From Actinomycetota bacterium (GTDB taxonomy: Bacteria > Actinomycetota > Thermoleophilia > Gaiellales > Gaiellaceae): a DNA stretch of 64,000 nucleotides. The DNA lies in assembly GCA_947445525.1 (NCBI GenBank), contig CANFDS010000002.1, positions 1-64,000 on the forward strand. Direction: 5' to 3'. Shown piece by piece: positions 20,870-38,056 of this stretch (within the stretch, counting starts at the first letter, position 1; each line of letters begins with the position of its first letter). Below the pieces are notes generated by a model. It saw nothing but the letters and a program-made list of their open reading frames with translations. It was not told the origin of the DNA and ran no database searches. The translations under genes and the position numbers were made by a program.

Positions 20870-21529
20870 GCTCTCGGCATGCGCCCGGCTCCTAGCCCAC
20901 CGCGAGATACAGGGTGCCGCCTTCGCCGCCTGTAGCAGCGCCGAGTCGACAGCCGGATTCGTTGCCCGCGCCGGCGACACGCCGCGCGCGAGCAATGTCA
21001 GGGTGCCACATGCGGCAACAGCCACGGTGGCGAACGCCAGCCGCCGCTACGACGGCCCGCTCACCCCGCCCAGCACCTCGCTCTCGATGCTCTGCTGCTT
21101 GCTCATCCAGTTCTCTGCCACGATTCTCTAGCCCCTACCGCGCCTGCCGCGCGGCGGTCGCTTGTTGCCTCAGAGGGCGCTTCCATACGTCATCGGACCA
21201 CCTGTCCTCGGTATTGGTTGACTGGCGGCCCAGTCGCTGACGGCCACACCATAGGGCGGCTTGGCAACCCGCTGCATCACCCTTCCGGGTGGCATTCCGG
21301 GCACCGGCGTGCCTCGACCGGGTGAACCGCTGCGGGCCGCTCACCAGCCTCCCCGCCGACCACTGGACACGCTCTTCAAGGCGCTGCCGCAGAGCTGCAT
21401 CGTGCCTCCCCCTTCTCCACTCGAATGACGCGAACCGACGCGAGTGCCCCACGCTAGACAGCGCGCCGCCGCCCGACATCCCCCGAACGGGTGTCACTCG
21501 ACCGGATCACTCGAAAGGGGGACGGGCCG
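20870..21529. other. Long non-coding or decayed stretch
   Basis: No convincing gene is seen in about 660 bases. On the minus strand a GTG at 21121 opens 24 codons (AENWMSKQQSIESEV and so on) that end in TAG at 21047-21049. The same frame then continues open with RRLAFATVAVAACGTLTLLA, a plausible membrane segment. That may be one small membrane protein cut by a nonsense codon, or chance. The longer open frames elsewhere in the stretch have no recognisable similarity and an Arg-rich shadow composition. Confidence 0.45.
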
Positions 21530-21535
21530 TAGACT
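21530..21535 (+). promoter_or_regulatory. Leaderless-type -10 box of murT-gatD
   Basis: TAGACT followed by 7 nt and the ATG at 21543. Confidence 0.48.
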
Positions 21536-21542
21536 GTCCCGC

Positions 21543-22907
21543 ATGCGCCTGGCCGCCGAGATCGCCCTTGCCCGTGCCGTCGGGGCTCTCTCGCGGCGCA
21601 CCGGCCGCGGCGGCGGCACGACCCTGCCCGGCAAGCTGCTGCTCCGGGTCGACGACGCAGCCCTGACCGCGCTGGCCCGCCGCCTGCCCAAGGGAGCCAT
21701 CATCGTTTCGGCGACGAATGGCAAGACGACGACCTGCGCGCTGGCCGCGCGCATCCTCGGCGAGGGCCGGACGCTGGTACACAACGCAGCGGGCGCCAAC
21801 CTCATGTCCGGGGTCGCCGCGACGCTGCTCGCGGCGCGCCACGCAGACATGGCGCTGCTGGAGGTGGACGAGGCGGCGCTGCCCGAGGTCGTGCGCCGGG
21901 TCGCCCCACGCGTGCTCGCCCTCGGCAACCTCTTCCGCGACCAGCTCGACCGCTACGGCGAGCTGGAGACGCTCGCCACGGGGTGGCGCGCCGCCGTGGC
22001 CGGTCTCCCGGCCTCGACCCGCCTGGTTGTCAACGCGGACGACCCGGTGCTGGGCGCCCTCGCCCTCGACCGGCCCGGCACCGTCACCTACGGCATCGAC
22101 GACCCCGCCCAGGCGCACCCGAGCCTGCAGCACGCCGCCGACTCCAAGTACTGCATCCGCTGCGGCGCCCCGTACGACTACGCCGCCGCCTACGTCGGCC
22201 ACCTCGGCGACTACCGCTGCCCGCGCTGCGACCACGCCCGGCCGCCACTCACCGTGGCCGCCCGCTCGATCTCCCTCGACGGCCTCGCCGGCACCGCCTT
22301 CGATCTCGTCATGCCCGACGGCGTGCACCGGGTGACCCTGCCCTTGCCCGGGCTCTACAACGTCTACAACGCGGTCGCCGCGGCCGCGCTCGGCCACGCG
22401 CTGGGCGTACCGCTCGCTGCCATTGCCCGCAGCCTCGAGGGGGCCGAGCCGGCGTGGGGCCGCTTCGAGCGGATCGAGGTCGACGGCAAGACCGTGGTGC
22501 TGCTGCTGGTGAAGAATCCGGCAGGCGCGAACGAGGCGGTGCGCACGCTGCTCGCCGGCGCCACTCCCCCGCGGCTCGCCCTCGTCGCGCTGAACGACGC
22601 GGTGGCCGACGGCCGCGACGTCTCGTGGATCTGGGACGTCGACTACGAGCCGCTGCTGGCGGGGCTGGAGCGGGTCGTCGCGAGCGGCGGTCGGGCGGCC
22701 GAGCTGGCATTGCGCTTCCGCTACGGCGGGCTCGCCGATGCTGCCATCGAGGTCGTGCCGGAGCTCGAGCAGGCGCTCGACCGCGCGCTGGCGCTGACCC
22801 CGGCCGGTGACGAGCTCGTCGTCCTGCCGACCTACACCGCGATGCTGGCGCTGCGGCGCGTCGTCGCCGGGCGCGGCCACGTGCGCAACTTCTGGGATGC
22901 GGCGTGA
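21543..22907 (+). CDS. murT: Lipid II isoglutaminyl synthase, Mur ligase subunit MurT
   Basis: A 454-residue Mur-ligase-like protein. The ATP loop is SATNGKTTT (residues 56-64). A four-cysteine zinc ribbon (CIRCG...CPRCD, about residues 203-226) sits in the middle domain, as in MurT, and the C-terminal DUF1727-type domain ends at RNFWDAA. With GatD it amidates the alpha-carboxylate of D-Glu in lipid II, a peptidoglycan change that affects crosslinking. The ATG at 21543 begins the family-like MRLAAEIALARAVGALSR; longer readings do not. It overlaps gatD by 4 nt. Confidence 0.92.
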   Translation: MRLAAEIALARAVGALSRRTGRGGGTTLPGKLLLRVDDAALTALARRLPKGAIIVSATNGKTTTCALAARILGEGRTLVHNAAGANLMSGVAATLLAARHADMALLEVDEAALPEVVRRVAPRVLALGNLFRDQLDRYGELETLATGWRAAVAGLPASTRLVVNADDPVLGALALDRPGTVTYGIDDPAQAHPSLQHAADSKYCIRCGAPYDYAAAYVGHLGDYRCPRCDHARPPLTVAARSISLDGLAGTAFDLVMPDGVHRVTLPLPGLYNVYNAVAAAALGHALGVPLAAIARSLEGAEPAWGRFERIEVDGKTVVLLLVKNPAGANEAVRTLLAGATPPRLALVALNDAVADGRDVSWIWDVDYEPLLAGLERVVASGGRAAELALRFRYGGLADAAIEVVPELEQALDRALALTPAGDELVVLPTYTAMLALRRVVAGRGHVRNFWDAA

Positions 22908-28245: not shown

Positions 28246-28677
28246 TCAACTCCCCGAGGAGCCAAAGCCACCGGCGCCGCGGTCGCTGGCCGGCAGCTCG
28301 TCGACCTCGACCGGCACCACCGCTGGTAGCGCCAGCACGACGAGCTGCGCGATGCGCATGCCCGGCTCGACCACGAAGGTGGCACGCGCATCGGTGTTGA
28401 GCAGCGCGACCTTCAGCTCGCCGCGGTAGCCGGCGTCGATCAGGCCGGGCGCGTTGACGATGGTGATGCCGTGCTTCGCAGCCAGGCCGGAGCGCGGCTG
28501 CACGAACCCGGCATGGCCCTCCGGGATGGCGACCGCGAGACCGGTGCCGACGAGGGCGCGCTCGCCGGGGGCCAGCTCGACCCGGTCGCAGGCGACAAGG
28601 TCGAGGCCCGCGTCACCGCTGTAGGCGCGCTCGGGGACGACGGCGTCCGGCCGCAGCCGCTTGACCGGCAGGTTCAC
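28246..28677 (-). CDS. dut: Deoxyuridine 5'-triphosphate nucleotidohydrolase
   Basis: A 143-residue trimeric-type dUTPase that converts dUTP to dUMP and keeps uracil out of DNA. The five motifs are visible: AGLDL, PRSGLA, the Asp/Tyr motif in GLIDAGYRGELKV, RIAQLV, and the C-terminal glycine-rich RGAGGFGSSG that closes over the active site. It overlaps the hflX stop by 4 nt. Confidence 0.95.
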   Translation of the reverse strand: MNLPVKRLRPDAVVPERAYSGDAGLDLVACDRVELAPGERALVGTGLAVAIPEGHAGFVQPRSGLAAKHGITIVNAPGLIDAGYRGELKVALLNTDARATFVVEPGMRIAQLVVLALPAVVPVEVDELPASDRGAGGFGSSGS

Positions 28678-29972
28678 ACCGCCGCCTCACGGGCCTCGGC
28701 GACCAGGAACGGTGCATAGCGGCGCACCTCGCGCTCGGGCAGCTGCGCGCGCACCAGCACGCCCTCGGCGGTGTCCTCACGGCTCGTGATCGGCGCCCCC
28801 AGCGCGTAGAGCGCCGACAGCACCGCGCCCTGGTCGTAGGGGACGAGCAGGTCGACGGCGACGAAGCGGTCGGCGAAGCGATCGGCGATGCGCGCCTTCA
28901 GGTCGGCCAGCCCCTCGCCCGTGGCCGCCGAGATCTGGAGCGACTCGGGGAAACGGTTCGCGAGGTCGCGCCGTCGCAGCGGGTCGACGGTATCGATCTT
29001 GTTGACGATGATCTCGATCGGCAGGTCGTCGGCGCCGATCTCGTGTAGGACGGCGTTCACGGCCGCCACCATCTCGTCGAGCCGCTCGGGCGACGCCGAG
29101 GCGTCGATCACGTGCAGCACGTAGTCGGCGACGAGCGTCTCCTCGAGGGTGGCTGCGAAGCCCTCGACCAGCTGGTGGGGCAGCCGCCGCACGAAGCCGA
29201 CCGTGTCGGTGACGAGGTAGCGCCGGCCCAGGTGGACGAAGCCGCGCGTCGTCGGGTCGAGCGTCTCGAACAGGCGATCCTTCACCGACACCTGGGCGTC
29301 CGTGAGCGCGTTGAGCAACGTCGACTTGCCGACGTTGGTGTACCCGGCCAGCGCAACGGTCGGGATGTCGGAGCGGCTGCGCTGCTTGCGGCGCGTGTCG
29401 CGCTGGCGGCTCAGCCCGTCGAGGCGCTGGCGCAGCAGCGAGATGCGGCGGCGCGCCATGCGCCGGTCGGTCTCCAGCTGCGTCTCGCCCGGGCCTCGGG
29501 TGCCGACGCCTCCGCCCAGCCGCTCGAGGTGCTGCCACATGCCGCGCATGCGCGGGAGGTTGTAGTCGAGCTGGGCGAGCTCGACCTGGAGCTTGCCCTC
29601 GGCGCTCACCGCGTGCTGCGCGAAGATGTCGAGGATCAGCTGCGTGCGGTCGATGACGCGGGTCTCGAGCTCGTTCTCGATGCGCCGCTGCTGGGTGGGG
29701 CTCAGCTCGTCGTCGGCGATCAGCACCTCGGCACCCGAGTCCTTGTAGGCAAGCTTCAGCTCCTCGAGCTTGCCCTTGCCGAGATACGTGCGCGCGTCCG
29801 GCTGGTCGCGGTGCTGCACGAGCCGGCCGATGATCGTGACTCCCGACGTGCGTGCCAGCTCGTAGAGCTCGGCCAGCTCCTCGTCGGCGTCGACGCCCGA
29901 GGCGAGCACGGCGATGACGAACCCACGCTCGGACTCGGCGCCCGGCGAGGGATCTGGATGGTGCGGACTCAC
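28674..29972 (-). CDS. hflX: GTPase HflX
   Basis: A 432-residue ribosome-associated GTPase that splits or rescues stalled ribosomes. It has the HflX-specific GGGVGTRGPGETQLETDRR segment, G1 GYTNVGKST, G3 DTVGF and G4 NKID. The N-terminal nucleotide-binding-like domain begins after ~12 variable residues. The GTG at 29972 is preferred over the ATG at 29978 because a CATACT box lies 7 nt before the GTG and touches the ATG. Divergent from dapE with a 54-nt shared region. Confidence 0.93.
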   Translation of the reverse strand: MSPHHPDPSPGAESERGFVIAVLASGVDADEELAELYELARTSGVTIIGRLVQHRDQPDARTYLGKGKLEELKLAYKDSGAEVLIADDELSPTQQRRIENELETRVIDRTQLILDIFAQHAVSAEGKLQVELAQLDYNLPRMRGMWQHLERLGGGVGTRGPGETQLETDRRMARRRISLLRQRLDGLSRQRDTRRKQRSRSDIPTVALAGYTNVGKSTLLNALTDAQVSVKDRLFETLDPTTRGFVHLGRRYLVTDTVGFVRRLPHQLVEGFAATLEETLVADYVLHVIDASASPERLDEMVAAVNAVLHEIGADDLPIEIIVNKIDTVDPLRRRDLANRFPESLQISAATGEGLADLKARIADRFADRFVAVDLLVPYDQGAVLSALYALGAPITSREDTAEGVLVRAQLPEREVRRYAPFLVAEAREAAV

Positions 29973-30026: not shown

Positions 30027-31109
30027 GTGAGCAACCTCGAGCACATCCTCGCCATGCGCACCCTCGAGCTGGTCGACATCCCGTCGGTCAGCCGCGATGA
30101 AGCCGCGCTGCACACCCACGTTCTCAAGCTCATCCCGCGGCCGCCGTTCACGGTTGAGTACCTCACCGAGGACGCGATGCTGTTCGTCACGCCGCGCCGC
30201 GAGGGCCGGCCGTTCGTGGTGCTCGCGGGCCACCTCGACACCGTCCCGCCACAGGGCAACTTCCCCGGCCGGCGTGAGAGCGGCGTCGTGCACGGCCTCG
30301 GCTCCGCCGACATGAAGAGCAGCCTGGCCGTGATGATCGAGATTGCCCGCTGGCTCGCGCTCGAGGAGATCGAGCCCGAGGTCGACCTGGGCCTGCTGTT
30401 CTTCGCGCGCGAGGAGCTCGCGCAGTCCGAGAGCCCGCTGCCCGCCTTCTTCGAGGCGTGCTCCCGTGCCCGCGAGGCCGACCTCGCGATCGTGATGGAG
30501 CCGACCGACAACACGGTGCAGGCGGGCTGCCTCGGCAACATCAACGCCGACCTCGTCTTCCACGGCGAGGCCGCCCACTCGGCGCGGCCCTGGACTGGCG
30601 TCAACGCGATCGGCCGTGCAGTCGAGGGGCTCGCGCACATCACGTCGCTGCCGCGCGAGGAGGTCGTCGTCGCCGGGTTGCCGTTCTACGAGGTGCTGTC
30701 GGTGACGCGCTTCGCCGGCGGCGTCGCCGACAACGTCATCCCCGAGCTGGCCTCGGCCCGGCTCAACTTCCGCTACGCCCCCGACCGGACGCGCGAGCAG
30801 GCCGAGGCCCGGCTGCGCGCGCTGGTGGCGCCCACCGGCGGCGAGCTCACCGTGCTCTCGAACTCGTCGCCGGCGCGGGTCGCGGCCGAGACGCCGCTCG
30901 TGCGCCGGCTGTGCGCGGCGGGCGGCTACGAGATCCTGCCGAAGCAGGCCTGGACGCCGGTTGCCGAGTTCTCGGACGCGGGCCTGGATGCGGTGAACCT
31001 GGGGCCCGGCGCGACGCACTACGCGCACCGCCGCGACGAGCAGGTCGAGACGCGCGAGCTCGTGCGCACCTTCGAGGCGGTCGCCCGGTTCCTGACGGAG
31101 CCGGCGTAG
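30027..31109 (+). CDS. dapE: Succinyl-diaminopimelate desuccinylase
   Basis: A 360-residue M20-family zinc peptidase homologue. Metal ligands are seen in AGHLDTVPP (His, Asp), GSADMKSS (Asp) and REELAQSES (catalytic Glu-Glu pair), with the final His in GATHYAHRRDEQV. In the DAP pathway it removes succinate from N-succinyl-LL-diaminopimelate. The next two genes, dapC and dapD, supply its substrate, which supports this role over a general M20 peptidase. Confidence 0.9.
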   Translation: MSNLEHILAMRTLELVDIPSVSRDEAALHTHVLKLIPRPPFTVEYLTEDAMLFVTPRREGRPFVVLAGHLDTVPPQGNFPGRRESGVVHGLGSADMKSSLAVMIEIARWLALEEIEPEVDLGLLFFAREELAQSESPLPAFFEACSRAREADLAIVMEPTDNTVQAGCLGNINADLVFHGEAAHSARPWTGVNAIGRAVEGLAHITSLPREEVVVAGLPFYEVLSVTRFAGGVADNVIPELASARLNFRYAPDRTREQAEARLRALVAPTGGELTVLSNSSPARVAAETPLVRRLCAAGGYEILPKQAWTPVAEFSDAGLDAVNLGPGATHYAHRRDEQVETRELVRTFEAVARFLTEPA

Positions 31110-31112
31110 GCT
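31107..31112 (+). promoter_or_regulatory. Leaderless-type -10 box of dapC
   Basis: TAGGCT, which includes the dapE stop codon, lies 7 nt before GTG 31120. Confidence 0.45.
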
Positions 31113-31119
31113 CTCCGGC

Positions 31120-32325
31120 GTGCGCGCCTCCCCCACTCTGGCCGCCATGGCGGTCTACCCGTTCACCCGGCTCGACGATGCGAAGCGCAGGGTGCGCGAG
31201 GCCGGCGTCGAGCTGATCGACTTCGGCATCGGCGACCCGCAGGAGCCGACCGACCCGATCATCCGCCAGGCCCTCGTGGACGGGCTGCGCGAGTCGTCCA
31301 GCTACCCCGTGTCGGCGGGGCTGCCGGAGCTGCGCGAGGCGATCGCAGCCTGGGTCGGACGGCGCTTCGGCACGGCCATCGACCCGGCCACGCAAGTCGT
31401 GCCGACGTACGGCTCGAAGGAGGCGATCTTCTCGTTCGCGCTCGCTACCGTCGACGTGCCGAGCGGCAAGGACACCGTCGTGGTGACCGAGCCCGGCTAT
31501 CCGGTGGGCGAGCGCGGGGCGCTGTTCGCGGGCGCCCGCGTCCTGCGGCTGCCGCTGCTCGAGCGCAACGGCTTCCTGCCCGACCTCGACGCGATCCCGG
31601 CCGCGGAGTGGGCGCGCATCTCGCTGTTCTGGGTCAACTACCCCAACAACCCGACGGGCGCAGTGGCGCCGCTCGGGTTCTACGAGGAGCTGGCGCGGCG
31701 GGCGCGCGAGCACGACTTCCTGCTGTGCTCCGACGAGGCGTACAGCGAGCTGTGGTTCGACGGCCCGACCGCCTCCGCGCTCGAGGTGGCCGACGGCGCG
31801 GTAGCGGCCGGCGCGAGCGGTGGCGCCGCAGCGGCCGACCCCGCCCGCTCGCTCGCCAACATCGTCGTCTTCAACACGCTGTCGAAGCGCTCCTCGATGA
31901 CCGGCTACCGCTCGGGCTTCGTCGCCGGCGACCCCGAGGTGATCGCCACCATGCGCGCCTTCCGACCGACCATCGGCACGGCGCCACAGGAGTTCGTGCA
32001 GCGTGCCTCGGTGGTCGCCTGGAGCGACGAGCGCCACGTCGGCGAGGCGCGGGCCCGCTACGCGGCGAAGCGCGCCGTGCTGCTGTCCGCGCTGCGCGAC
32101 TGCGGGCTTCGGGTCGCCGCCAGCGAGGCGACCTTCTACCTGTGGGTGCACGTGCCCGAGGGGACGACCTCCGAGGCGTTTGCCGAGCGGCTGCTGGCGG
32201 GAGGCATCGTCGCCACCCCCGGCTCCTATCTTGGCCCGTCGGGCGAGGGCTTCATCCGCTTCGCGCTGGTGCCGCCGCTCGACGCCTGCGAGCGCGCAGC
32301 TGCCATTCTGAGAGACCTGCTGTGA
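31120..32325 (+). CDS. dapC: Succinyldiaminopimelate transaminase
   Basis: A 401-residue class I/II PLP aminotransferase. The PLP lysine lies in NTLSKRSSMTGYRSGF, the Asp in LLCSDEAYSE, and NYPNNPTGAV is the usual Asn-Pro motif. It converts N-succinyl-2-amino-6-ketopimelate to N-succinyl-LL-DAP with glutamate. A short Ala/Gly-rich insert (about residues 225-245) sits before the PLP strand. The gene lies between dapE and dapD. Confidence 0.9.
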   Translation: MRASPTLAAMAVYPFTRLDDAKRRVREAGVELIDFGIGDPQEPTDPIIRQALVDGLRESSSYPVSAGLPELREAIAAWVGRRFGTAIDPATQVVPTYGSKEAIFSFALATVDVPSGKDTVVVTEPGYPVGERGALFAGARVLRLPLLERNGFLPDLDAIPAAEWARISLFWVNYPNNPTGAVAPLGFYEELARRAREHDFLLCSDEAYSELWFDGPTASALEVADGAVAAGASGGAAAADPARSLANIVVFNTLSKRSSMTGYRSGFVAGDPEVIATMRAFRPTIGTAPQEFVQRASVVAWSDERHVGEARARYAAKRAVLLSALRDCGLRVAASEATFYLWVHVPEGTTSEAFAERLLAGGIVATPGSYLGPSGEGFIRFALVPPLDACERAAAILRDLL

Positions 32326-32338
32326 CCGAGGGAGGAGC

Positions 32339-33151
32339 ATGAGCGTGCACGAGCTGGAGAGCCGGATCGAGGCGGCGTTTGCAAGCGGGGAGATCGCGCC
32401 TGCGGCCGCTGCCGTCGCCGAGACCATCCGCCTGCTGGACGGCGGCGAGCTGCGCGTCGCGGAGCTGCACGGTGACGAGTGGGTCGTCAACGAGTGGGCG
32501 AAGAAGGCGATCCTGCTCTTCTTCCGGCTGCAGAAGCTGGAGCCGATCGAGGTGGGGCCCTACCTCTACCACGACAAGATCCCGCTCAAGCGCGACTTCG
32601 TCGAGCGCAACGTGCGGGTCGTGCCGCCCGCCGTGGCCCGCTACGGCGCGTTCCTCTCGCCCGGCGTCGTGCTGATGCCGAGCTACACGAACATCGGGGC
32701 CTGGGTCGGCCCGGGCACGATGGTCGACACGTGGGCGACGGTCGGCTCGTGCGCGCAGATCGGCGCGAACGTCCACCTCGCCGGCGGTGTCGGCATCGGC
32801 GGCGTGCTCGAGCCGCCGAACGCGCGCCCGGTGATCGTCGAAGACAACTGCTTCGTCGGCTCGCGCGCGATCGTCACCGAAGGGGTGCGCGTGTGCGCCG
32901 GCGCCGTGCTGGGCGCCAACGTCGTGCTCACCGCGTCGATCCCGGTGATCGACGTCACCGGCAGCGAGCCGGTCGAGCACCGCGGCTACGTGCCGCCGCG
33001 GGCGATCGTCGTGCCCGGGGTGCGCACGAAGGAGTTCCCGGCGGGCTCGTACGGCCTGCCGACGCCGATTATCATCGGCTGGCGCAGCGAGGCGACCGAC
33101 GAGAAGGTGTCGCTGAACGACGCGCTGCGCACGCACGGCGTCAGCGTCTGA
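32339..33151 (+). CDS. dapD: Tetrahydrodipicolinate N-succinyltransferase
   Basis: A 270-residue left-handed beta-helix acyltransferase with hexapeptide repeats (IGAWVGPGTMVDTWATVGSC, IGANVHLAGGVGIGGVLEP). It transfers succinyl from succinyl-CoA to tetrahydrodipicolinate, the first step of the succinylase branch. A strong ribosome binding site (GAGGGAGGAGC) precedes the ATG. Length matches the family. Confidence 0.95.
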   Translation: MSVHELESRIEAAFASGEIAPAAAAVAETIRLLDGGELRVAELHGDEWVVNEWAKKAILLFFRLQKLEPIEVGPYLYHDKIPLKRDFVERNVRVVPPAVARYGAFLSPGVVLMPSYTNIGAWVGPGTMVDTWATVGSCAQIGANVHLAGGVGIGGVLEPPNARPVIVEDNCFVGSRAIVTEGVRVCAGAVLGANVVLTASIPVIDVTGSEPVEHRGYVPPRAIVVPGVRTKEFPAGSYGLPTPIIIGWRSEATDEKVSLNDALRTHGVSV

Positions 33152-33175: not shown

Positions 33176-33982
33176 CTAGAGGTCGGCGAGCAGCTCGGGG
33201 GCCAGCTCGACGGCACAGATCTCCTGCGCCTCCCCCGTCTGCCGTGCGATCAGGTCGCCCGCGGCGTCGCGCTCGATCGCGACGACCAGGTCGCCACCGC
33301 CGAGGTGCACGGTCACCGGCGACTCGCACCAGCCGTACGTCACTGCTGCGCCCGCCACCGCCGTCGCGCTCGACCCCGATGAGAGGGTCTCCCCTGCGCC
33401 GCGCTCCCAGACGCCGACGGTGACGTCGTGCGGCCCGTCCACCCGGACGAGCTGGACGTTGGTGCGCCCGGGGAAGCGCGGGTGCGTCTCGACCAGCGGG
33501 CCGAGGCGGCGCACCTCGGCGGGGACGGGCTCGTGCCGGATCACGGCGTGCGGGTTGCCCACCGACACGGGAGTGAGCTCGACGGCCTCTCGTGCCGCGC
33601 CGACCTCGATCGTCTCGACCGCGCCGACCTCGACCCGGCCGAGCATCGTCTCGACGCTCAGCCCATCCTGCATGCGCGCCGTGACCACGCGAGGCCCGAC
33701 GCGCACCGTGACCTCGTCGCTGCCGCTACGCCGCGCCAGCCAGCGGGCGGCGATGCGCGTGCCGTTGCCCGAGAACTCGGCAGTCGAGCCATCGGGGTTC
33801 CAGATGACGACCTCGGCCTCGGGCCCGGCCACCGTCACGATCTCGAGAATGCCGTCCGAGCCCACGCCGAAGTGGTAGTCGCAGATGCGGCGGACGCGGT
33901 CTGGCGTCAGCGGCCAGAGAAGGTCGGCCCGCTCGACGAGGAGGTAGTCGTTACCGAGCCCGTGCCATTTCGAGAATCTCAT
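33176..33982 (-). CDS. dapF: Diaminopimelate epimerase family protein with both catalytic Cys replaced by Ser
   Basis: A 268-residue DapF-fold protein. Conserved substrate contacts are present: GLGNDYL, WNPDGS, GNPHAV and ERGAGET. The two cysteines that act as acid and base in DapF (QCGNG and ACGSG in E. coli) are Ser71 (FSGNGTR) and Ser202 (LSSGSSA) here. Either serine works in this lineage, another epimerase exists, or the protein does something else. Start at ATG 33982 opens MRFSKWHGLGNDY. It overlaps the end of miaA by 32 nt, so it is the last gene of the rny-miaB-miaA operon. Confidence 0.85.
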   Translation of the reverse strand: MRFSKWHGLGNDYLLVERADLLWPLTPDRVRRICDYHFGVGSDGILEIVTVAGPEAEVVIWNPDGSTAEFSGNGTRIAARWLARRSGSDEVTVRVGPRVVTARMQDGLSVETMLGRVEVGAVETIEVGAAREAVELTPVSVGNPHAVIRHEPVPAEVRRLGPLVETHPRFPGRTNVQLVRVDGPHDVTVGVWERGAGETLSSGSSATAVAGAAVTYGWCESPVTVHLGGGDLVVAIERDAAGDLIARQTGEAQEICAVELAPELLADL

Positions 33983-35024
33983 CGCAGGTCGCGGCCGATG
34001 GCCGCTCGGCATCCACGGTAACGAGTCCGGGGATCTTTCGCATCCAGATGCGTTGGCGGCGCGCGTACTGGCGGGTGCGAACGGTAACCGACTCGATCCA
34101 CTCGTCGCGCTCCAGCTCCTGCTCGGTCTCGCGCAGCCCGATCATCTGGCGGGCCTGGTCGGAGAGCCCGGCAGCGAGCACGGCCCGCGCCTCGTCGGGG
34201 CCGCCGCGCTCCCACATCTCCGCGGTGCGCACGCCGATCCGTCGTGACAGCTCGTCCCGCCCAACTTCCAGCCCGATCACGAGGGACGGCAGGCGGGTCG
34301 TCTTCGACCACAGCCGGTCGCGCTCCGGCGTGAGCGTCTTCCCCACCGCGTGCAGCTCGAGCGCTCGGATCACGCGGCGGCTGTCGTTCGGATGGAGGGC
34401 GGCCGCGGCATCCGGGTCGCGCCGGGCCAGCTCGCGGTGAGCCTCCACCGGGCCGAGCTGGCGGTGCAGCGCCTCCATCTCCGCGCGCAGCCCGGGCCGC
34501 GGCGCCGGAGGCAGGTGGAGCTCGGCGAGGGCGGCGCGCAGGTAGAGCCCGGTGCCGCCCGCGACGACCGCGATCTGCCCGGACTCGGCGATCTCGTCGA
34601 CGGTGGCGTGCGCGAGCGCCTGGTACTCCCCCACCGAGCCGCTATACGAGAGCGGCCAGATGCCAACGAGGCGGGTCTCGCGCTCCGGCTGGTTGGTGAG
34701 GATCGGGACGCCGGCGTAGCACTGCATCGAGTCGCAGGAGACGACCACCCCGTCAACGGCGGCGGCGACCGCCTCGGCGACGGCCGTCTTGCCCGACGCG
34801 GTGGGGCCGAACACGGCGATCACCGAGGGCAGGCCGTCGGCCCGGACGGGGGCCGGCGGCGGAGCCGGGGCCGGAGCAGGTGACGGCGCGTGGGCGGGTG
34901 ACGCAGCGCGGGCGGCGCCGTCGGCGGAGCCTCCCCCGGCGGCCGCAGCGCGCCGAGCGGCCCCTGTGGCCTCGCGGGCGCGTCCGGCCTTGCGCTGCGC
35001 GCGGCTACCGCCGGGCGGAGTCAT
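33951..35024 (-). CDS. miaA: tRNA dimethylallyltransferase
   Basis: A 357-residue enzyme that adds the isopentenyl group to A37 of tRNAs reading UNN codons. The P-loop GPTASGKT, the CDSMQCYAGVPILTNQP region and GLYLRAALAEL are typical of MiaA. An extra N-terminal tail of about 75 residues is Ala/Pro/Gly-rich (PAPAPAPPPAP) and precedes the P-loop. The start ATG shares a base with the miaB stop (TGATG). Confidence 0.92.
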   Translation of the reverse strand: MTPPGGSRAQRKAGRAREATGAARRAAAAGGGSADGAARAASPAHAPSPAPAPAPPPAPVRADGLPSVIAVFGPTASGKTAVAEAVAAAVDGVVVSCDSMQCYAGVPILTNQPERETRLVGIWPLSYSGSVGEYQALAHATVDEIAESGQIAVVAGGTGLYLRAALAELHLPPAPRPGLRAEMEALHRQLGPVEAHRELARRDPDAAAALHPNDSRRVIRALELHAVGKTLTPERDRLWSKTTRLPSLVIGLEVGRDELSRRIGVRTAEMWERGGPDEARAVLAAGLSDQARQMIGLRETEQELERDEWIESVTVRTRQYARRQRIWMRKIPGLVTVDAERPSAATCDEILEMARAR

Positions 35025-36457
35025 CACGCGGTCACTTCGCCGCTGCGGGCCGAGGTGCCCGCGCTGACGCCTGCAGCCGCGCGCGTCGCGGCACCCGTGC
35101 CGGCGCCCGCGACGGCACCTGCTCCCAGCTCCGTACCAGGCGCAGCCTGCGCGCCGCGCAGCGTCATCGAGCTGGCGGCCTCGATGCGCACGTCGACGAG
35201 GTCGCCGGCCGCCGCGGCGCCGGTGAAGTTGACGGTGGTGTTGCGCCGCGTGCGGCCGCGCAGGACGCTCTCGTCGGTGCGGCTCGGGCCCTCCACCAGC
35301 ACCTGCTCGACGCGCCCGACGCGCTCCTCGTTGCGCTCTCGGGCGATGCGTTGCACGACCTCGATCACGCGCTCGATGCGCTCGCTCTTGACGGTGTCGG
35401 GCACCTGGTCGGGCATCGCTGCTGCATCGGTGCCCTGCCGCGGCGAGTAGACGAAGGTGAAGGCGCTGTCGAAGCGCACCTCCTCGACCACGGCGAGCGT
35501 CTCGAGGAAGTCGCTCTCGGTCTCGCCGGGGAAGCCGACGATGATGTCGGTGCCGAGCGCAAGGTCGGGGATCGCGCTGCGCAGCTCGGCGACGAGCGCC
35601 AGGTAGCGCTCCTGCGTGTAGGTACGCCGCATCAGCTTGAGCAGCCGCGACGAGCCGGACTGGAGCGGCAGGTGTGCGTGCTCGCAGACGGCCGCGCACT
35701 CGGCCATCGCCTCGATCACGGGGCTGCGGAAGTCCTTGGGGTGCGGGCTCGTGAAGCGGATCCGTTCGATGCCGTCGATCGCGTCGCAGGCGCGCAACAG
35801 CTCGCCGAACTCGGTGCGGATGGCCGGCAGCAGGTCGCGGCCGTACGAGTTGACGTTCTGGCCGAGCAGCGTGATCTCGCGGACGCCGTCGCGGGCCAGG
35901 CCCGCCACCTCGGCGACGATGTCGCCGGGCCGGCGGCTCTGCTCGCGGCCGCGCACGGCCGGCACGATGCAGTAGGAGCAGGTCGAGTTGCAGCCCATCG
36001 AGACCTGCACCCAGGCCTGGAAGCCGCGCTCACGATGCGCGGGCAGGTCGCCGGCGAACGTCTCCCACTCGCCGAACCGGCCGCGCGGGGCATGGCCGCC
36101 GGCGCCGACCCAGTCGCCGAGGTGCGGGATCGAGCCGGGTCCAAAGGCGACGTCGACGTACGGGTACAGCTCGAACAGGCGCTCCTTCTGCGCCTCGGCG
36201 TAGCAGCCGCCGACAGCGATCACCTTGCGGGTGTCGCGTGCCTTCAACGCCGCCGCCTGTGCGAGATGCGCGGCAAACTTCTGGTCGGGCTTCTCGCGGA
36301 TGGTGCACGTGTTGAAGACGAGGACGTCGGCGTCGTCCTGCGTGGGCGCCTCGCCCAGCCCCAGCTCCTCGAGCATGCCCTTGATGCGCTCGGAGTCGTG
36401 CGCATTCATCTGGCAGCCGAACGTGGTGAGGTGGTACCGCTTCATCGCCCCGGGCAT
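35024..36457 (-). CDS. miaB: tRNA-2-methylthio-N6-dimethylallyladenosine synthase
   Basis: A 477-residue radical SAM methylthiotransferase. It has the N-terminal domain cysteines (TFGCQMNAHDSER, NTCTIREK, VGGCYAE), the radical SAM triad CNSTCSYC and a C-terminal TRAM domain. It modifies the product of MiaA, its operon neighbour. The last ~45 residues are an Ala/Gly-rich tail. ATG 36457 abuts a hairpin; the second ATG at 36445 (MKRYHLTTFGC) is an equally good start. Confidence 0.93.
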   Translation of the reverse strand: MPGAMKRYHLTTFGCQMNAHDSERIKGMLEELGLGEAPTQDDADVLVFNTCTIREKPDQKFAAHLAQAAALKARDTRKVIAVGGCYAEAQKERLFELYPYVDVAFGPGSIPHLGDWVGAGGHAPRGRFGEWETFAGDLPAHRERGFQAWVQVSMGCNSTCSYCIVPAVRGREQSRRPGDIVAEVAGLARDGVREITLLGQNVNSYGRDLLPAIRTEFGELLRACDAIDGIERIRFTSPHPKDFRSPVIEAMAECAAVCEHAHLPLQSGSSRLLKLMRRTYTQERYLALVAELRSAIPDLALGTDIIVGFPGETESDFLETLAVVEEVRFDSAFTFVYSPRQGTDAAAMPDQVPDTVKSERIERVIEVVQRIARERNEERVGRVEQVLVEGPSRTDESVLRGRTRRNTTVNFTGAAAAGDLVDVRIEAASSMTLRGAQAAPGTELGAGAVAGAGTGAATRAAAGVSAGTSARSGEVTA

Positions 36458-36476
36458 GGTAGCCCCCCGGGCTACC
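36458..36476. repeat. Hairpin between rny and miaB
   Basis: GGTAGCCC and GGGCTACC form an 8-bp stem with a 3-nt loop. It contains the rny stop codon and touches the miaB ATG at 36457. It could couple or limit miaB translation, or be a cleavage site. Confidence 0.5.
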
Positions 36477-38004
36477 TGGCGTACTCGACCGCGCGCGACT
36501 CCCGGATCACGGTCACCTTGATCTGCCCGGGGTACTCGAGGCGGCTCTCGATCTCGCGGGCGAGCTCGAGCGAGAGCAGCGCTGCGGCGTCGTCGTCGAT
36601 CTCCTCGGGCTTGACGATGACGCGGATCTCACGGCCGGCCTGCAGCGCGTACGCCTTCTCGACGCCCGGCTTCTGCTGGGCGATCTCCTCGAGCGCGGTA
36701 AGGCGCTTGACGTACGACTCGAGGCCCTCGCCGCGCGCCCCCGGCCGCGAGGCGGAGATGGCGTCGGCGGCGATCACGAGCACGGCCTCGACGGTCTGCG
36801 GCTGCACCTCGTAGTGGTGTGCCTCGATCGCGTGGATGACGTGCTTGCTCTCGCCGTAGCGGGTCGCCAGCTGGGTGGAGATCTCGGCATGCGAGCCCTC
36901 GACCTCGTGCGTCGACGCCTTGCCGATGTCGTGCAGCAGCGCGGCGCGGCGGGCAGTGCGGACGCTGGCGCCCAGCTCGGCGGCCATCAGGCCTGCGAGG
37001 TGTGCGACCTCGAGCGAGTGCTTGAGCACGTTCTGCCCGTAGCTCGTCCGGTACTTGAGCCTGCCGAGGGCACGGGCGAGCTCCTCGTGGACGTCGCCGC
37101 AGTTGGCCTCGAGCACCGCCTGCTGCCCGGCCTGGAGGATGTGCTCCTCCAGCTCGGCCTTCGACTGGTAATACATCTCCTCGATCCGTGCCGGGTGGAT
37201 GCGCCCATCCTGAAGCAGCTTCTGCACGGTCATCTTGGCGATCTCGCGCCGGATGCCGTCGAACGACGAGAGGACGACGGCGTTGGGCGTGTCGTCGATA
37301 ATCACGTCGACTCCCGTGACGTGCTCGAGGGCGCGGATGTTGCGGCCCTCGCGCCCGATGATCCGGCCCTTCATGTCGTCGGAGGCGAGCTCGACCAGCG
37401 AGACGGTGGTCTCGGCGGCGTGGCTCGCAGCGACGCGCTGCAAGGCGTCGGCGACGAGGTTGCGCGCCTTGCGCCGGGCGTCGCTCTGCGCCTCCTCGTC
37501 GAGCACGCGCGCCCGGCGGGCGAGCTCGTGCCGGATCTCGTCCGCCGAGCGGGCAACCATCTCCTCCCGCGCCTGCGCCTGGCTGATGCCCCCGATGCGC
37601 TCCAGCTCGCGCAGCTCCTTGTGGCGCGCCTCCGTCAGCTCCTGCTGGAGCTGACGCGCATGGGCCTCGCGATCGGCGATGCCCTGCTCGCGGCGGCCGA
37701 CGTCGGTACCACGCCGCTCCACGTCCGACTCCTGCGCGCGTACACGCTCCTCGGCGCGCGCCACCTCCTCGCGTCGCCGCTCCAGGTCGCGCTCGGTCTC
37801 GGTGCGCAGCTGGAGCGCGCTCTCGCGCGCCTCGATCAACGCCTCGCGGCGCATCGTCTCGGCTGTCCGCTCGGTCTCGGCGACGATCGCGGCCCGCCTG
37901 CGCTCGGCCTCTCTCAGGCGCGTCGCGCCGAGGGCGCGCAGCGCCACCGCCATCCCGCCGACTCCGCCGGCGAGCCCGATGAGTATCCCTACTACGACGA
38001 GCAT
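36472..38004 (-). CDS. rny: Ribonuclease Y
   Basis: A 510-residue membrane-anchored endoribonuclease. An N-terminal membrane segment (LVVVGILIGLAGGVGGMAVAL) is followed by a long coiled coil (residues ~25-190), a KH domain (GRIIGREGRNIRALEHVTG) and an HD domain (HSLEVAHL, LLHDIGKAS). The ATG at 38004 is preferred because TGGAG lies 6 nt upstream and the protein then opens directly with the membrane anchor. An in-frame GTG at 38052 would add 16 residues. Confidence 0.93.
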   Translation of the reverse strand: MLVVVGILIGLAGGVGGMAVALRALGATRLREAERRRAAIVAETERTAETMRREALIEARESALQLRTETERDLERRREEVARAEERVRAQESDVERRGTDVGRREQGIADREAHARQLQQELTEARHKELRELERIGGISQAQAREEMVARSADEIRHELARRARVLDEEAQSDARRKARNLVADALQRVAASHAAETTVSLVELASDDMKGRIIGREGRNIRALEHVTGVDVIIDDTPNAVVLSSFDGIRREIAKMTVQKLLQDGRIHPARIEEMYYQSKAELEEHILQAGQQAVLEANCGDVHEELARALGRLKYRTSYGQNVLKHSLEVAHLAGLMAAELGASVRTARRAALLHDIGKASTHEVEGSHAEISTQLATRYGESKHVIHAIEAHHYEVQPQTVEAVLVIAADAISASRPGARGEGLESYVKRLTALEEIAQQKPGVEKAYALQAGREIRVIVKPEEIDDDAAALLSLELAREIESRLEYPGQIKVTVIRESRAVEYAR

Positions 38005-38056
38005 GGGCAGCTCCAGGTCTCTCACCCGCCCGGAGGCGGGCGCAACGCTCACTTGT

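Follow-up and report, generated by a model that had tools for sequence, protein, structure and literature searches.

Diaminopimelate (DAP) epimerase, DapF, an enzyme on which cell-wall and lysine synthesis depend, serves as a model for the cofactor-independent racemases, and it presents a puzzle: the alpha proton that it removes is only very weakly acidic, yet the base, a thiolate, is weak too. Its known acid/base pair consists of Cys73 and Cys217 (E. coli/H. influenzae numbering). In known DapF these cysteines are placed at helix N-termini and are hydrogen-bonded to backbone amides, with no basic residue within 4 A (PMC12039745). Here we analyse a dapF homologue in which both cysteines are replaced by serine. 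It is located at 33176–33982, on the minus strand, of a stretch of 64,000 nucleotides, called hereafter the window (contig CANFDS010000002.1 of assembly GCA_947445525.1, positions 1 to 64,000), from an Actinomycetota bacterium of the class Thermoleophilia (family Gaiellaceae).

Catalytic positions and binding site

The open reading frame translates into a protein of 268 amino acids, which scored 181.6 bits against the NCBIfam DapF model TIGR00652, above its cut-off of 114.65, and 143.9 against Pfam DAP_epimerase. The TIGR00652 cut-off was also passed by three further members with serine at both positions (hereafter Ser/Ser, first and second site in that order) and by one Ser/Cys member. Solved DAP epimerases aligned across most of the length of the window protein. 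Its AlphaFold model (predicted local distance difference test score, pLDDT, of 97.6) has the DapF fold, the closest PDB entries being DAP epimerases with template modelling (TM) scores up to 0.88, and it places the two catalytic positions at opposing helix N-termini (helices 72–86 and 203–215).

In the alignment, the cysteine of the E-x-CGNG motif of solved DapF corresponds to Ser71, and that of the GETxACGTGA motif to Ser202. Both serines are encoded by TCG on the minus strand: Ser71, the equivalent of Cys73, at 33770–33772 and at the N-terminal end of helix 72–86; Ser202, the equivalent of Cys217, at 33377–33379 and at the N-terminal end of helix 203–215. The protein thus lacks the thiol/thiolate pair of two catalytic cysteines that characterizes DapF. 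It retains Asn11, Asn62, Asn143, His145, Asn175, Glu193, Arg194 and Gly203. The ancestry and position of the gene, and the fold and binding site of its product, identify it as dapF, whereas the catalytic residues are not those of a thiol-pair DapF.

A preliminary description of the stretch, made from the sequence alone, had noted serine at both cysteine positions among otherwise kept active-site residues, and this is borne out by the alignment to solved DapF and by 104 Ser/Ser sequences. Ser71 and Ser202 were unchanged in all 104, which are distinct and come from independent assemblies; they share kinship, and the counts are not counts of independent events. The DAP-binding residues Asn11, Asn64, Asn157, Asn190, Glu208, Arg209 and Gly218 (H. 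influenzae numbering) were invariant as well (104/104), and the 27 positions invariant across all Ser/Ser sequences include contacts to both ends of DAP. In Anabaena DapF the far end of DAP is contacted by Asn66, Asn164, Asn197, Glu215 and Arg216 (PMC12039745), and equivalents of all five are retained in the Ser/Ser proteins. Serines near the two catalytic ones are freely replaced by Ala, Thr or Gly; S201, for example, is Ala in 35/77 sequences and S204 is Thr in 49/77. Pairwise ratios of nonsynonymous to synonymous substitution (dN/dS) were 0.09–0.31 in Ser/Ser pairs, versus 0.35 in one Cys/Cys pair. These patterns point clearly to selection that keeps the DAP site intact and a hydroxyl at each of the two catalytic positions.

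A thiol relocated elsewhere in the protein was ruled out, since 21 of the 104 Ser/Ser proteins contain no cysteine and no such thiol can therefore stand in for the missing pair. Equivalents of His159 and Glu208 are retained in the Ser/Ser group of the window. In a second group, at loci L158, L163–L166, L168–L172, L174–L176 and L215 (GTDB families f8, f10, f11 and f12), the conserved active-site His159 is Gln, in 27/27 sequences.

Distribution and origins of the serine pair

Of 61 close relatives, 58 had a DapF match, one each; class-wide, DapF turned up in 280 of 299 genomes and was usually single-copy. The relatives share the serine pair, which occurs in 100 genomes of six GTDB families, without exception among the 100 (f1, 68 genomes; f2, 5; f8, 5; f10, 15; f11, 5; f12, 2). 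Six families carried Cys/Cys (f3, 7 genomes; f4, 2; f5, 5; f6, 3; f7, 5; f9, 4), and Ser71 with Cys202 was present in five genomes of one f9 genus. Within this genus (g51), loci L157, L202, L245, L246 and L247 are Ser/Cys and L200 is Cys/Cys. Its Ser/Cys state is evidently a recent single-site change.

A DNA pattern for the second-site serine, run on 396 genomes of the phylum, also matched families of other classes, and the 20 loci read there were all Cys/Ser. These loci (L250–L269; f15, f23, f36, f44 and f50, of other actinobacterial classes) indicate that Cys/Ser DapF is common in at least two families. All four combinations of cysteine and serine occur in nature. A literature search, with subscription journals outside its coverage, returned no report of a natural Ser-substituted DapF. 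The change had earlier been described as paired and coordinated: both sites are indeed Ser in the group, but the existence of Ser/Cys and Cys/Ser versions means that either site can change without the other.

In a gene tree built with the two trait columns masked, Ser/Ser sequences fell in three places: f1 beside the Cys/Cys family f5 (96/84), f2 beside the Cys/Cys family f3 (99/91), and f8, f10, f11 and f12 together (100/99). On this tree the first site must have changed at least four times and the second at least three times. Forcing all Ser/Ser sequences into one clade cost 22.6 log-likelihood units (p = 0.051). A single origin is disfavoured by the three places in the tree, though this p value gives no formal rejection. 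Several origins are likely, a single one keeping p = 0.051 in the topology test, and the Ser/Ser state probably arose two or three times. The families agree with several origins, because f1–f4 belong to one order and f8–f12 lie outside it.

Routes to meso-DAP and gene neighbourhood

A canonical DapF elsewhere in the genome, which the preliminary description had named as evidence against its view, was not found: a family model detected a single locus in the genome of the window and one in each of 32 high-quality genomes. One extra DapF match, below threshold, was seen in genome G136, inside a Pro_racemase gene. The genome of the window is a draft with 93% completeness and 8% contamination, which makes the absences weaker for it than for the closed genome described below.

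Apart from DapF, meso-DAP is known to be formed only through the meso-DAP dehydrogenase, Ddh. No Ddh (TIGR01921, over cut-off) was detected in 61 relatives, the genome of the window included, and one was found over cut-off among 28 genomes of the other families and genus checked. That genome (G271, f8, locus L248) is the only one checked that has both a Ser/Ser DapF and a Ddh over cut-off. With this exception, a Ddh bypass was rejected because the gene is absent from nearly all genomes. A relative of proline racemase (PF05544) was rejected as a substitute on similar grounds, no gene of this family being present in the genome of the window or in the genome matched to Conexibacter woesei. Of the 61 relatives, 50 have LysA, which uses meso-DAP, as do 20 of 20 other genomes tested.

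The genome matched to the Conexibacter woesei type strain (G227) is closed, a single contig of 6,359,369 bases. It has one DapF, which is Ser/Ser, an LL-DAP aminotransferase gene directly 3' of dapF, and LysA; for Ddh, it gave no match over cut-off and weak sub-threshold matches only. The peptidoglycan of the type strain is A1gamma with meso-DAP, meso-DAP is stated for the whole order Solirubrobacterales (PMC3035278), and Solirubrobacter, of the same order, has also been reported with meso-DAP (PMC10722151). This natural case, a sole Ser/Ser DapF without Ddh and with LysA in a species with a published meso-DAP wall, is the decisive lead.

On the strand of dapF (minus), rny (ribonuclease Y, 36472–38052, TIGR03319), miaB (35024–36457, TIGR01574) and miaA (33951–34823, the end being the start of the family match, TIGR00174) lie upstream. 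The 3' end of miaA overlaps the start of dapF. Further downstream is hflX (28674–29906, minus strand), the usual end of the order miaB-miaA-dapF-(dapL)-hflX in the class. Elsewhere in the class, whether the member is Ser/Ser, Ser/Cys or Cys/Cys, the gene after dapF encodes an aminotransferase, which is LL-DAP aminotransferase wherever tested, and hflX often follows. In the window, three plus-strand genes lie between dapF and hflX: dapE (30048–31109, the start being that of the family match, TIGR01900), for the succinyldiaminopimelate desuccinylase that makes LL-DAP, the substrate of DapF; dapC (31120–32325), for succinyldiaminopimelate transaminase, with TIGR03537 as best family, below its own cut-off; and dapD (32339–33151, NF008808), for tetrahydrodipicolinate N-succinyltransferase, which is convergent with dapF. 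The gene had been described as far from dapC-D-E; the three in fact adjoin it, ending at 33151 with a gap of 24 bp. Given the order shared with Ser/Cys and Cys/Cys members, the Ser/Ser gene occupies the normal, ancestral place of dapF beside genes that make its substrate.

Comparison of the window (30048–33151) with loci L006 and L034–L043 revealed that the same spot before hflX holds either dapL or the convergent dapE-dapC-dapD. In the family of the window, one LL-DAP route has apparently been swapped for the other at this site. Scans for promoters, terminators and repeats around dapF gave nothing useful. A Mur ligase family gene at 21444–22907 (plus strand) had MurT, lipid II isoglutaminyl synthase, as its best family, far under the cut-off.

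Mechanism, rival explanations and known relatives

We consider it fairly probable that the window protein is a working DAP epimerase that uses a thiol-free mechanism. As to the chemistry, the preliminary description had offered a different chemistry among several possibilities, and a hydroxyl pair in place of the thiol pair is the best inference. The fuller proposal, on which we are evenly divided, is a thiol-free two-base epimerase whose acid/base pair is formed by the hydroxyls of two serines, one at each of two opposing helix ends. Thermoleophilia would have arrived at it on two or three occasions, possibly by way of Ser/Cys and Cys/Ser intermediates, and it would provide a route to meso-DAP that is proof against oxidation.

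In such an enzyme, the conversion of LL-DAP to meso-DAP would move one proton at one alpha carbon by means of two serine hydroxyls rather than thiols. One serine, alkoxide-like, would take the alpha proton, and the opposite serine would donate one. The frame of helix N-termini of known DapF is retained in the model of the Ser/Ser protein; the negative charge on serine could be stabilized by the helix end and the backbone amides, as that of the thiolate is, and the barrier could be lowered by the protonated amine and the hydrogen-bonded carboxylate of the substrate. Turnover may be slow, yet sufficient for wall and lysine. As for the gain, one might guess that such an enzyme escapes the oxidative shutdown of thiol-pair DapF, which is caused by a disulfide in the active site. 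Some of these bacteria inhabit dry, irradiated soil (Solirubrobacter, PMC10722151).

Several points weigh against a thiol-free epimerase. Engineered Cys to Ser changes left PddB with <0.1% activity and greatly reduced that of HisR, and the loss in PddB was said to match that of Cys to Ser M. tuberculosis DapF (PMC11602996, PMC8225329). No compensating residue was clearly shared by both large Ser/Ser groups, with His159 in one and Gln in the other. With a pKa of about 16, a hydroxyl is much inferior to a thiol as a base. Finally, an unrelated second epimerase may lie beyond the reach of searches with known families.

The near-inactivity of the engineered mutants and the restriction of the searches to known families are also what the main rival draws on. 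This explanation, which we regard as rather unlikely, is that another enzyme makes meso-DAP, the Ser/Ser DapF having lost its activity and been retained to bind DAP, for regulation or as a partner of another protein. Binding of RppH is known for E. coli DapF, and the DapF-RppH complex is a solved structure; a partner role, however, would not demand the invariance of both hydroxyls and of the DAP contacts at both ends in 104 sequences. Of the known candidates for the second enzyme, Ddh is lacking in nearly all genomes and Pro_racemase in the genome of the window and the C. woesei-matched genome. Moreover, the gene has stayed beside those that make LL-DAP, and inactivation would have had to recur after each of about three separate exchanges. 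If the enzyme is dead nevertheless, these lineages must hold another meso-DAP-forming enzyme, which would be equally interesting.

It is improbable that the protein is still a DAP epimerase in which the proton is carried by a bound water molecule or by a His, Glu or Asn close by, the hydroxyls only positioning it. The equivalents of His159 and Glu208 kept in the window's group would allow this, but the second Ser/Ser group has Gln for His159 throughout its 27 sequences, and one solved DapF shows no basic residue within 4 A of its catalytic sulfurs.

Still less probable is a shift to another substrate, which the protein would racemise, epimerise or subject to elimination, even though HisR is a DapF homologue acting on another amino acid and the proline racemase family includes Ser/Thr dehydratases. 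The far-end DAP contacts are invariant, the gene is the sole dapF and sits with DAP genes, and the lineage includes the meso-DAP organism C. woesei. Given the far-end contacts, the presence of LysA and a C. woesei-matched genome from a meso-DAP species, the different substrate or stereo-outcome suggested earlier is not upheld.

A decaying gene or a sequencing error can be dismissed, as the early description already held for decay: the serines are fixed in 100 genomes of six families and recur in independent assemblies, which excludes error at both codons, the gene is single-copy and under purifying selection, and dN/dS in Ser/Ser pairs is not above the Cys/Cys value of 0.35.

The Ser/Ser group, with DapF as sole copy and its product in the wall of the species matched to one member, questions the textbook two-thiol rule. 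If the thiol-free reading is true, most of the work falls to the protein environment rather than to the thiol; the Cys/Cys, Ser/Cys, Cys/Ser and Ser/Ser orthologues form a set for direct comparison. Family-based annotation would then be masking a change of mechanism in soil bacteria that are abundant, and inhibitors directed at thiols, aziDAP among them, would not be expected to block Ser/Ser DapF in the usual way.

Among described systems, canonical DapF (TIGR00652; H. influenzae 1bwz, P. aeruginosa 8qzy, Anabaena 9mro) is alike in fold, length, DAP contacts, gene position and pathway neighbours, but has two catalytic cysteines where the Ser/Ser group, with many members free of cysteine, has serines. 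The H. influenzae variants C73S (2q9h) and C217S (2q9j) carry serine at the same positions in a fold that matches the window model. They are, however, single mutants made in the laboratory to slow catalysis and aid crystallisation, whereas the pair in the window is natural, fixed and double. In the proline racemase superfamily, which shares the fold, the natural Ser/Cys 4-hydroxyproline 2-epimerase (B9JQV3/B9K4G4) shows that serine works as one acid/base residue in a 1,1-proton transfer, on another substrate and with one thiol retained (PMC4113996). The Ser/Thr trans-3-hydroxyproline dehydratase, of the same fold, has a thiol-free site in which serine takes the alpha proton, in a one-base dehydration as opposed to the epimerisation proposed here (PMC4113996). 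The DapF of C. glutamicum, the same enzyme in another actinobacterium, has two cysteines that pair as a disulfide upon oxidation and thereby close the active site (PMC5296763), a bond that is impossible in the Ser/Ser enzymes.
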